A stretch of 54,310 nucleotides of DNA from Treponema sp. Its GTDB lineage: Bacteria > Spirochaetota > Spirochaetia > Treponematales > Breznakiellaceae. The position numbers were made by a program, and so were the translations under genes. Under the pieces are notes generated by a model. The model was not told the DNA's origin and searched no databases. It saw nothing but the letters and a program-made list of their open reading frames with translations. This document shows, piece after piece, positions 40,257 to 54,165 of this stretch (its first letter is position 1; every line of letters starts with the position of its first letter). Location: positions 1 to 54,310 of the forward strand of contig JAIRQN010000002.1 of NCBI GenBank assembly GCA_031256445.1, written 5' to 3'.

Positions 40257-40334
40257 TACTAAACTGGCAGTGCCGGAGATAATGTAAAGAAACTCACACT
40301 GAGACATAAAGAGCGCAAAGGTAGTAAAAGGAAT

Positions 40335-40385
40335 TTTACCACGAACCATACGAACTCGTTCCTTCGGAATGTACGCGAACCTTTG
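40335..40385 (+). repeat. Dispersed repeat fragment (TTTACCACGAAC family)
   Basis: TTTACCACGAAC at 40335-40346 is identical to the terminal repeat of the element at 54220-54299; the far end is not preserved. The surrounding spacer 40257-40477 shows no gene. Confidence 0.6.
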
Positions 40386-40477
40386 ATTCAATATTGAATC
40401 GCAAAACACGGGAAATCAATGTTATTTTATTAAGCAATGGAGAAAAGTGACTGCCATCAGGCATTTTTATAGAAAAA

Positions 40478-41957
40478 CTAAGGGCGGACAAGGCAGAAGC
40501 CGTTGTCGCTACCCCTGCCGTTGGGGTTGCTGCTGTTCCGGGCCGCCGAAGCAGTGTTCTCAGCCGAATGGAACCAACTCCCGCCGCGCATCAGACGGTT
40601 GACCCCGGACACCGCGCCTGTTGGATCTGTCTGCGCAGTATTTGGGTAAGCCTCGTACCAGTCCCAGCACCACTCCCATACATTACCGTGCATGTCATGC
40701 AAGCCCCAGGCGTTAGCAGGTTTTTGTCCTACAGGTTTTGTACTGCTGCCGCTGTTTGCTTTATACCAGCCGGTATTGCCACTTATACTTGAACCCGTAT
40801 TATACGCCGTCGTTGTCCCCGCTCTGCATGAGTACTCCCACTCCGCTTCTGTAGGCAGACGGTATCCATCGGCGTTCCTGTTCCATGTTACTGTCGCGAA
40901 TGTTATCGGGTATTCTGTTGTGGGAGTTCTTCCCGTTATCGTATATGCGGGTGTAAGACCTTCCCTTCGGCTTCTTTTATTACAGTACTCTACCGCGTCA
41001 AACCATGACACCCGTTCTACAGGAAGATTATCGCCTTTAAAATTACTGGGATTTACTCCCATTATTTCCTGATACTCCTTTTGTGTTACTTCGTACCTGC
41101 TCACATTAAAAGAGCTTACCGAGACCCGGCGCTGACCTGAAGCGCTGTCGCCCATTGTAAAGGTTCCGCCGTTTATGCGCACAAAGCCTGAAGGTACTGC
41201 GGATGCGGGTGCAGGTTGCACAGTTAGAACTGGCGCGGGTGTTTGTTGCGCAACAGGCGCTGGCTGCACAGCCGGCGCGGGACGGGCGCCGAGATAAGCG
41301 GAAGACGCGCCGAAGAAACGCAGGGAAAGCTCCGGGTGCTGTTTACCGCCGCTGACACTAAGGACATCTTCACCTGTTTTATCGAACACATCGCGTATGC
41401 TTAAACTCTGGTTTTTGATGTTATTCAGCAGTTGACTTGTGAAAAGCCCGTTGCGGCCCGTGCCGTCCGCCGCCGTTGAATTCGCGCTTGTCGCGTACAT
41501 GATTATACTGCCGGCCGGAGCCCTGCCTACTACAGAAAGCCCTCTGCTGCCTGAACGCGACCAGCCGAACGGATTGTCACGGCAGGCGTCAAGCACGATC
41601 ATGTTAAGTTCATTCCCCGAGTCGTTAAGGTTATCCAGCAGGGTCTGCACAGAAAAAGCCATAAACGTTTCTGGAAGCTCCAAGACGGCGTATCAGGTTA
41701 GAGGCGGCATTCTCCATCTGGTCAAGGTTCCCGTTTAACACTTTTTCTACTATAAAACCCAAACCTTTTAAAACCGCTTCCATGTCATTGGCATCGTTAA
41801 CGGGATTGTTAAGCCTTGAAATGCCGGTATAATTCCCGTTCCCTATCACCAGCGCGTATTTCTGCGGAGCGGAAACATTCTGCCCGGCATTTTGCTGAGA
41901 GAAAGACAACGCGCAGACAACCGCGCCAAGAATCAAAACAAAAAACGGTTTTTTCAT
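40478..41957 (-). pseudogene. Caspase-like / FGE-sulfatase fusion lipoprotein-type gene, broken by an internal deletion
   Basis: An N-terminal frame (41957-41631) has a signal peptide and the first half of a Peptidase_C14 caspase fold (KYALVIGNGNY ... GFIVEKVLNG). A second frame (to 40478) resumes with SVQTLLDNLNDSGNELNMI and the catalytic-Cys strand VLDACRDNPFG. It continues with a Pro/Ala/Gln linker and a complete FGE-sulfatase domain (GGTFTMGDS, VSWFDAVEYCN, LPTEAEWEYSCRAG, MHGNVWEWCWDW). At the join (about 41651-41660) the frame shifts and the YYAGHG strand with the catalytic His is missing, so about 35 residues were lost. The repeated GCTTTTTCT-like sequence suggests a microhomology deletion. 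Protease activity is impossible; the FGE part alone might still be made from an internal start. Confidence 0.8.
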
Positions 41958-41999
41958 GGGGAAGATGCTCCTTATAAAATTAAGCGATAATATACAATA

Positions 42000-42851
42000 T
42001 TATTCATTATTCAATCTTTGAATAGTTTTAAAATCAAGCCCGGTTATTTCATGAACAGAATCAAGAGAATACCCTTTTTGCAAAGCGTTTCTGGCAATCT
42101 CTTTATAACTCTCCTCACGGGCTTCTTCTTTTGCCACTGCTATAGCATCATCTAAATTCCACTCGGTATATAACATATTAAAGACCTCCGCTCCATGAAT
42201 TTCCAAGTACTCCTTAAGTATACCATGTTTATGACAATATTTTATAGCTTCCTCTACTCCTTTTGTCAAATCGCCGTGCTTTTCCCAACAAGCGCGGGCT
42301 TTGGCCATAAATTGGCTGTATTCCGCCAGTTTTGAGCACCTGTTCACTATTTCCAGGTTCTTTCCTTCGTTGATGTTTATAACCCTCACTTCCAGTTCAA
42401 GAAAAGGATGAGCTTTTTTCGGAATACCTAAATCCTGCGGATTTTCAAAAAGATCAGATAAATGCAATATTTTCTCGTCAGGGAACGGAGATGTTCCGTT
42501 GTATAGGACATAAAACTCCGGCCAGGGGATTGGCAGCGGTTTTGATGAGTAAATGGTTCTGCTTTTAACCATTTTTTTAAGCACTTCCGCAATGTACAAT
42601 AACAGCCGTAATGCGATATTGGGGTTGATCGTACTTTGGTGTTCAATTAAAACGACAAGTTTACCTCCTATCTCGAAAGAGATATCATTGTATAAATCCA
42701 TAACCAGCGCTTTTTTAAGCGTGTTAATGGAAACCGGAACATCGGGAGCAAGTGTAACGCCTCCGAGAGCGCAATACAGTTCCCGAAGCAAGTCAGGGTC
42801 AGAGAACAGCGTAGTGAAAACACTGTCCTTGAATTTTTTGTTAATCTTCAT
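42000..42851 (-). CDS. Rpn-family recombination-promoting nuclease / putative transposase (PD-(D/E)XK)
   Basis: 283 residues from ATG 42851, behind AAGGGT; the frame is open further upstream without family resemblance. MKINKKFKDSVFTTLFSDPD and the nuclease core LVMDLYNDISFEIGGKLVVL, then IEHQSTINPNIALRLLLYI, match the Rpn/YhgA-like group. The PD-(D/E)XK residues appear as D (NDISFEIG) and ExQ (IEHQS). The C-terminal part (AREESYKEIARNALQKGYS, ITGLDFKTIQRL) is the usual helical end. The family promotes RecA-independent recombination. A remnant of a second copy is at 20521-20592. Confidence 0.85.
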   Translation of the reverse strand: MKINKKFKDSVFTTLFSDPDLLRELYCALGGVTLAPDVPVSINTLKKALVMDLYNDISFEIGGKLVVLIEHQSTINPNIALRLLLYIAEVLKKMVKSRTIYSSKPLPIPWPEFYVLYNGTSPFPDEKILHLSDLFENPQDLGIPKKAHPFLELEVRVININEGKNLEIVNRCSKLAEYSQFMAKARACWEKHGDLTKGVEEAIKYCHKHGILKEYLEIHGAEVFNMLYTEWNLDDAIAVAKEEAREESYKEIARNALQKGYSLDSVHEITGLDFKTIQRLNNE

Positions 42852-42969
42852 ACCCTTATATGGGCACGGCTGTGCGTATTGCTTTGGTCTTGAAGGAAAA
42901 ATAATGAAAAATTTAATGAAATACAAAAGCGCACAAAGCAGTTACTCCTCACTCGTAACCGCTTATTAT

Positions 42970-51171: not shown

Positions 51172-54165
51172 ATGCAATTCGGTAAATTCAAGGTGTTTTT
51201 TGGTCTTTTCTTAACCGCGGTTTTTTGCCTGTTATTTGCGGCTTGTTCCCTTGGGACTGATATTGAAGAACTGAGGGACAGGGTAAGAGAGAGGGAAAGG
51301 GAAAAGGATGAAGGCGCACAAACAGAGTTTACAGTCACTTTTGATTCCAACGGCGCGACAGGCGGGACTGTTCCCGATGCGGTTACCGCAAGCTCAAGCA
51401 TTACGCTTCCGGATAAAGGAAATCTTGTAAAAACCGGATACACCTTCGGCGGCTGGAACACAAATGCAAACGGCGGCGGATCAACATATACAGCAGGTTC
51501 CGCCTATACGGCAACCGCTGACGTTACTCTTTACGCAAAGTGGGAGTCTGTCTTTATAGTCACCTTTGATTCCAACGGCGCGACAGGCGGGATAGCTCCC
51601 TTTCAGATTAACTCAAGCCAGAACGCGCATATAACGCTTCCAGATAAGGGAAGTCTTTCCAGAACCGGGTACACATTCGGCGGATGGAGCACAAACGCGG
51701 ACGGCAGCGGGACAACATACGCGGCAGGTTCTTCTTATATGGTAACCGGATATATTACATTATACGCAAAATGGAATCCGCCGGGGATGTTTACGGTTAT
51801 ATTTGACACAAACAGCACAAGCGGAACCGCGCCTGACGCGCAGACAGTTTCTGAAGGTTCAGTCATAACACTGCCAAATGACAGTGATTTTTCCAAATCA
51901 GGCTATACCTTCGGCGGATGGAACACGGACGCAGAAGGCAGCGGGGTAAATTATCCTGCCGGATTTGATTATACAGTTGCGGCTAACGTTACCTTTTACG
52001 CCAAATGGGCTGTCAACAGACACACAGTTACTTTTGACACCAACGGCGCGGCTGGAACCGCTCCAATCGCACAGACAGCGGATTACAGTACAGACATAAC
52101 ATTGCCAAACGATAACGGGTTTACCAAAGGCAGCAATACCTTCGGCGGATGGAGCACAGACGCGGACGGCAGCGGAATAACATACGCGGCAGGTTCCTCT
52201 TTTACTGTTACCGCTGATATTACGTTATACGCAAAATGGAATCCGCCGGGAATGTTTACGGTCATATTTAACATAAACAGCGCAAGCGGAACCGCGCCTG
52301 ATTCTCAGACAGTTGCCGGCGGTTCAGCCGTAACGCTGCCGGACAGCGGCGCCTTTTCCAAACCCGGCCATACCTTCGGCGGCTGGAATACAAACTCGGA
52401 CGGAAACGGGACTATCTTTGAAACCGGTTCTTCCTATACAGTTACAGCCAATTTTACCCTTTACGCAAAGTGGAATATTAATATTTACACAGTTACTTTT
52501 GACACCAATGGCGCGGCTGGAACCGCTCCGGCAGCGCAGACGGCGTATTACAATACAGGCATAACATTACCGAATGACAGTTCTTTTTCCAATCCCGGAT
52601 ACACCTTCGGCGGCTGGAATACAAACGTAGACAGCAGCGGGGAGACATATACGGCAGGTTCCCATTACACGGTAACCTCCGGCGTTACGTTATACGCAAT
52701 ATGGAACCCGCCGGGAATGTTTACGGTTATATTTGACATAAATAACGGAAACGGGACCGCGCCGGAAGCGCAGACAGTTACCGACGGTTCAGCCGTAACG
52801 CTGCCGAACAACAGCGCTTTTTCCAGACCCGGCCACACATTCGACGGCTGGAACACAAACGCGGACGGAAACGGCGTAAATTATCCTGCCGGACATACTT
52901 ATACAGTTACAGCCAATTTTACCCTTTACGCAAAGTGGAATATTCATAGTTATACAGCCGTCTTTGACATTAACGGAGCTGCAAGCGGAACCGCTCCAAC
53001 TGTACAGACAGCGGATTACAATACAGGCATAACATTGCCAAACGACAGCGCTTTTTCCAAACCCGGTTATACTTTCGGCGGCTGGAACACAAATACAGAT
53101 GGCAGCGGAACAACATACGCGGCAGGTTCTTCTTATACGGTTACCGGAAATGTAACTCTTTACGCGAAATGGGAGCATACGGTTACATTTAACGCTAACG
53201 GCGCGGCAGACGGGACTGCTCCCGCCGCGATGAGTGTAAACCCAAATGCGGGTATTACGCTGCCTGGTCAGGGAAATCTTGTTAGAAACGGATTTACATT
53301 TGGCGGCTGGAATACCGCAGCGAACGGCAGCGGAACAACGTATACGGCAGGTTCCTCTTATACAGTGACTGGTAATACAACTCTTTATGTAAGGTGGGAA
53401 CCTGTCAGCGGTGATATGGTATGGATTAATTCTGGAACTTTTCAAAGAAATGGCTACACAATAACATTAACCAGCGGTTTTTATATGGGTAGATTTGAAG
53501 TAACTCAGGAACAGTATCAAGCGGTTATGGGTATCAATCCAAGCAATTTTAAATCAAACCAAGCATCTGGTGAAATCCAAAGCAAACGCCCTGTAGAACA
53601 AGTAAGCTGGTATAGTGCGATTGTATTTTGCAATAAGTTAAGTATTGCTGAAGGATTGACTCCGGCGTACAGGATAAATAACAATACAAATCCATCTGCT
53701 TGGGGAGCAGTACCGACAAGCAGTAACGCAACATGGAACGCCGCACAGGTTGTTGCAGGTTCTACAGGTTACCGTCTACCTACAGAGGCGCAGTGGGAGT
53801 ATGCATGCAGAGCAGGGACAACAACAACATGGTCTTTTGGCAACAATGAAAGCGATTTTACAAATCATGGATGGTACAGTGAAAATTCCAGTAGTACACA
53901 TGAAGTTGGAATGAAACTTCCTAACGCGTGGGGTTTATATGACATGCACGGGAATGTATGGGAATGGTGCTGGGACTGGTATGGAAGTTTACCGAATGCG
54001 GCGCAGACTGATCCCACAGGCGCGTCTTCGGGGAGCTACCGCGTATTTCGCGGCGGGCGCTGGGGCGGTGTAATTGAGGACACTAGTTCTGCGAACCGGT
54101 TTCGCAACAATCCTTACTACACAAGCAATAGCGGTCACGTCGGCTTCAGGCTAGTACGCCCTTGA
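51172..54165 (+). CDS. Surface lipoprotein with nine InlB-type B-repeats and a C-terminal FGE-sulfatase domain
   Basis: 997 residues. The lipoprotein signal (LLFAACSLG) is followed by a charged linker (RVREREREKDEG), then nine Flg_new/Listeria-Bacteroides repeats of about 75 residues. Each has the form TVTFDxNGAxGTAP ... GYTFGGWNTxxDGSG ... ADVTLYAKW. The C-terminal 260 residues form an FGE/C-type-lectin fold: MVWINSGTF, GRFEVTQEQYQAVMG, VSWYSAIVFCNKLS, LPTEAQWEYACRAG, MHGNVWEWCWDW, GFRLVRP. B-repeats act as stalks and the FGE fold as the display head. The C-terminal end resembles the variable region of the Treponema DGR protein TvpA. The gene has no FGE-type catalytic Cys pattern that I can place with certainty. 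Confidence 0.9.
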   Translation: MQFGKFKVFFGLFLTAVFCLLFAACSLGTDIEELRDRVREREREKDEGAQTEFTVTFDSNGATGGTVPDAVTASSSITLPDKGNLVKTGYTFGGWNTNANGGGSTYTAGSAYTATADVTLYAKWESVFIVTFDSNGATGGIAPFQINSSQNAHITLPDKGSLSRTGYTFGGWSTNADGSGTTYAAGSSYMVTGYITLYAKWNPPGMFTVIFDTNSTSGTAPDAQTVSEGSVITLPNDSDFSKSGYTFGGWNTDAEGSGVNYPAGFDYTVAANVTFYAKWAVNRHTVTFDTNGAAGTAPIAQTADYSTDITLPNDNGFTKGSNTFGGWSTDADGSGITYAAGSSFTVTADITLYAKWNPPGMFTVIFNINSASGTAPDSQTVAGGSAVTLPDSGAFSKPGHTFGGWNTNSDGNGTIFETGSSYTVTANFTLYAKWNINIYTVTFDTNGAAGTAPAAQTAYYNTGITLPNDSSFSNPGYTFGGWNTNVDSSGETYTAGSHYTVTSGVTLYAIWNPPGMFTVIFDINNGNGTAPEAQTVTDGSAVTLPNNSAFSRPGHTFDGWNTNADGNGVNYPAGHTYTVTANFTLYAKWNIHSYTAVFDINGAASGTAPTVQTADYNTGITLPNDSAFSKPGYTFGGWNTNTDGSGTTYAAGSSYTVTGNVTLYAKWEHTVTFNANGAADGTAPAAMSVNPNAGITLPGQGNLVRNGFTFGGWNTAANGSGTTYTAGSSYTVTGNTTLYVRWEPVSGDMVWINSGTFQRNGYTITLTSGFYMGRFEVTQEQYQAVMGINPSNFKSNQASGEIQSKRPVEQVSWYSAIVFCNKLSIAEGLTPAYRINNNTNPSAWGAVPTSSNATWNAAQVVAGSTGYRLPTEAQWEYACRAGTTTTWSFGNNESDFTNHGWYSENSSSTHEVGMKLPNAWGLYDMHGNVWEWCWDWYGSLPNAAQTDPTGASSGSYRVFRGGRWGGVIEDTSSANRFRNNPYYTSNSGHVGFRLVRP
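51775..53164 (+). repeat. Three 465-bp higher-order repeats inside the B-repeat gene
   Basis: The NPPGMFTVIF motif recurs at 51775, 52240 and 52705, exactly 465 bp (155 codons) apart. Each unit holds two B-repeats of alternating type. This indicates amplification of a two-repeat block. Confidence 0.8.

Follow-up and report, generated by a model that had tools for sequence, protein, structure and literature searches.

A probable caspase-FGE pseudogene in a Treponema genome

The locus described here, which lies in a stretch of 54,310 nucleotides of a Treponema sp. contig (the window), is very probably a pseudogene whose intact form encoded an exported fusion of a caspase with an FGE domain. Two frames on the minus strand (41957-41631 and 41683-40478) were recognized from the open reading frames and the sequence itself; they meet at about 41651-41662, in agreement with the initial annotation, which had described two frames of one gene meeting near 41651-41660 (Table 1). 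In the first frame, the caspase fold starts with KYALVIGNGNY, between the signal peptide and the NVYGFF segment, and the second frame carries FSVQTLLDNLND, the Cys motif, a linker, and a complete FGE-type domain, the letters ahead of FSVQ being the first part of the gene read out of frame. The intact ancestor would have been a secreted protein composed of a His/Cys caspase-type protease, a Pro/Ala-rich linker, and a C-type-lectin-fold FGE-like binding domain. Through a single deletion of about 101 to 104 bases, the His strand would have been lost and the downstream part put out of frame. The true start would now yield a 108-residue secreted fragment devoid of protease activity, and neither the Cys part nor the FGE domain would normally be made. 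We infer that the event was a single deletion, that it is recent, and that no useful product results from it.

Table 1. Features of the caspase-FGE locus and its surroundings (window coordinates)
Feature	Position	Strand	Details
Block between rpmE and methyltransferase gene	40257..42969	.	Several relatives lack it at this place
Second open frame, 401 aa	40478..41683	-	TTG start; without export signal
FGE-type (C-type-lectin-fold) domain, complete	40484..41188	-	Pfam FGE-sulfatase match
TGC codon (Cys397)	40493..40495	-	Arg in G-F-R in every other aligned domain (114 of 115)
Remaining caspase part of second frame	41324..41683	-	Catalytic-Cys motif VLDACRDNPFGW; Peptidase_C14 model 97-224
First frame, 108 aa	41631..41957	-	Sec-type signal peptide MKKPFFVLILGAVVCALSFSQQ, first caspase strands, NVYGFF, then out-of-frame CADPAG-stop
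Putative deletion join	41651..41659	-	Single GCTTTTTCT; from sequence and comparison with relatives
Likely ribosome-binding site AAGGAG	41968..41973	-	10 bases ahead of ATG 41957; read directly in sequence
Transposase_31/YhgA-like protein gene	42000..42926	-	Adjoins the pseudogene in the same block; Pfam

The Pfam profile search located positions 2-63 of the Peptidase_C14 model in the first frame and the rest of the matched model in the second, and no match to positions 64-96 was found between the two frames. The catalytic-His strand motif [FYW]AGH[GA] is absent from the window copy and the catalytic-Cys motif, of the LDACR type, is present, whereas the one continuous reading frame expected of an active orthocaspase is interrupted at the join by a change of frame. 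Judged on its sequence, the caspase is dead. The FGE domain gave a full-length profile match to PF03781 (162.7 bits, model 4-255 of 255). Thus, the annotated inactivation of a caspase-FGE gene through deletion of the catalytic-His strand, with the Cys strand and the FGE domain left in place, is supported. In catalytic formylglycine-generating enzymes, the active-site Cys pair lies in the RGGS...AAR segment, as in the human enzyme; no Cys occurs in the RGGSW...AAR segment of the window FGE domain, which reads RGGSWFHSAENTASAARN.

To define the missing interval, we compared the window with caspase frames from its genus; both ends of the interval could be placed in 33 of them. These have 101 or 104 bases more between GFF and (A)VSVQ, and the interval nearly always encodes [FY]AGHG, in the context FYAGHGVQ..NYLIPV or similar. 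The 104-base class includes L140, L141, and L143, to which the caspase part is most closely related, and the size of the loss depends on the subfamily taken as reference; since both 101 and 104 equal 2 modulo 3, one deletion explains at once the lost His strand and the shift of frame. The sequence at the join had been described as repeated, but minus-strand GCTTTTTCT occurs only once in 41324-41957, at the join itself, so that a lost second copy could be inferred only from the relatives. These usually read GG(N)TTTTTCTTTTAY on the left of the interval and GC(N)GT(N)TC(N)GT(N)CA on the right, where the residue ahead of Ser is Val in 27 of 33 cases and Phe, Leu, or Ile in 2 each. A short sequence may plausibly have been common to both ends, nine bases at most with the Phe form in the ancestor; in every relative examined, however, the exact overlap with the junction is at most 3 bases, and microhomology is thus no more than a possible route to the deletion. 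The exact junction sequence had no match in viral contigs.

The break is known from one assembled contig of one strain, the window being part of a draft genome of 107 contigs, and it is conceivable that the gene of the organism is intact and that the contig lost about 100 bases through an assembly fault or a minority-strain consensus. We regard this as improbable: the overlap at the join, including the approximately nine bases allowed by the best ancestor codons, is shorter than usual assembler words, and a substitution in the FGE domain, discussed below, independently hints at lost constraint. Still less credible, and the least probable of the explanations considered, is a programmed or phase-variable frameshift that would join both frames at the T-rich GGCTTTTTC tract. 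Such a tract does exist, and a second genome contains a caspase gene (L146, G029:C124, bases 600-760) whose frame is broken at the tract found at the window's join, reading GGCTTTTTTATTACGCGG in that copy; however, a change of frame cannot bring back the roughly 100 missing bases, and the L146 copy retains YAGHG, and thus the His strand, despite its frame change, its break looking like an independent one-base lesion.

The initial annotation had allowed for retention of the display domain. Only the first frame, however, has the signal peptide and a good ribosome-binding site; the second frame may start at TTG 41683 or at ATG 41662, the latter with a distant GGAG, and no good ribosome-binding site lies near either. 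With export and initiation both tied to the first frame, display by the remaining FGE domain is unlikely. Even so, the second frame stays open for 401 codons and includes an FGE domain of normal conservation, which selection on the FGE domain alone would also explain. The second frame could then be a living gene, translated from one of the two internal starts into a cytoplasmic protein made of the Cys strand and the FGE domain. We consider this very unlikely: a good start signal and an export signal are missing, the product would expose one half of a caspase fold, and an Arg that is invariant elsewhere has been replaced. An equally small chance is given to selection of the second frame, from an internal start, as a caspase-free FGE lectin-like protein, which would represent a step in the splitting of fusions into modules.

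The FGE domain of the window departs from the alignment at 6 of 80 conserved columns, which places it 28th among 115 domains, within the normal range; in the caspase halves, most differences from the relatives are at third codon positions. Apart from Arg397Cys the remaining domain is well preserved, so that the loss looks recent. The pattern of conservation fits a young pseudogene and, weakly, an FGE part that is still under selection, and Arg397Cys hints at an independent sign of lost constraint. A chimera of two paralogues was rejected, as both halves of the caspase have the same best relatives (L141, L140, and L143) at similar identity, 72-75% for the N half and 71-73% for the C half.

The closest named relatives of the gene come from termite-gut Treponema and Spirochaetaceae metagenome genomes. 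The genome of the window shares its genus with 39 genomes that were searched. Of the 48 caspase-like frames examined in this genus, 27 carry an FGE domain, a fraction that leans upward because the sample was partly chosen by similarity to the window gene and that includes some fused frames nearly identical between genomes. The His and Cys motifs are both present in nearly all intact relatives. Among prokaryotic sequences, the metacaspase-FGE architecture was reported in 2012 in 33 of 671 (PMC3501461), and a caspase-FGE architecture has also been reported in archaea (PMC6426788). It follows that the fusion can hardly be called unusual, as it had been; being common in the relatives in its intact form, it makes the window gene an ordinary dead copy. 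Two further arrangements were observed in the genus: a local expansion of six caspase genes over about 15 kb of a single contig (G013:C22; L139, L212, and L216), and a 261-residue caspase-like frame (L192, G003:C82) of permuted order, in which the C-terminal segment precedes the N-terminal one and FAGYG and LDAAA replace the dyad motifs.

In five genomes (G036, G038, G021, G033, and G017), a convergent methyltransferase gene follows rpmE after 1 to about 350 bases, whereas in the window the two are separated by about 2.7 kb containing the caspase-FGE gene and the Transposase_31 gene; four other genomes have different, unrelated genes at this place. As the block is absent from the same site in relatives, the caspase-FGE gene is most simply explained as a lineage-specific arrival. 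A truncated copy of the Transposase_31 gene (94% over 322 bases) lies at G000:C101:47824-48145 (L217:1325-1646), on another contig, with one caspase gene and one FGE gene close by (a few kilobases at most). The suggested search for an intact paralogue in the same genome succeeded in part, as two intact caspase genes were found (contigs C26 and C101), but neither ends in FGE, both terminating in a sequence that, by eye, resembles outer membrane proteins. No recent caspase-FGE copy was found elsewhere in this genome, the DNA matches listed being at about 74% and restricted to the FGE part. The genome has 18 FGE-domain matches, and the window itself encodes, at 51172-54165, a protein of 997 residues that contains nine Listeria-Bacteroides (InlB-type) repeats and ends in an FGE domain. 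A phage origin was discarded: among the records listed, Microcystis phages match the FGE domain only, at less than 40% identity.

The window gene shares the domain order of the bacterial orthocaspase/metacaspase-FGE-sulfatase fusions (Peptidase_C14 plus PF03781; PMC3501461), matching both Pfam families above the cut-offs and featuring the LDACR Cys motif; different from them, its His strand is deleted and its frame broken. With such genes from termite-gut Treponema-type genomes of its genus (among them L140, L141, L143, and L136), it has in common the signal peptide, caspase subfamily, linker, and FGE end, at roughly 52-75% identity by part, but in those genes the frame is intact and includes [FY]AGHG. 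The best solved-structure match of the FGE domain (residues 166-399; E 1.3e-38) is Treponema denticola TvpA (PDB 2y3c), a variable protein with an FGE-type lectin fold, which has no caspase and, unlike the window's domain, is the target of a diversity-generating retroelement; a role as such a target was rejected here, since the draft genome gave no reverse transcriptase (PF00078) match. The nearest solved relative, by sequence, of the genome's intact caspase paralogue is the paracaspase MALT1 (PDB 3v4o; E 3e-15), a eukaryotic protein without FGE, whereas the window copy is without the His strand. A role of FGE-type domains as lectin-fold effectors of conflict systems has been considered (PMC7159879).

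Taken alone, one decayed copy of a family that is multiplying in these termite-gut spirochaetes carries little weight. It may nevertheless be of slight value as a sign of birth-and-death turnover in caspase-FGE families, because gene numbers vary widely across the genomes of the genus, from 0 to 18 matches, and at least one further copy, that of G029, is frame-broken.
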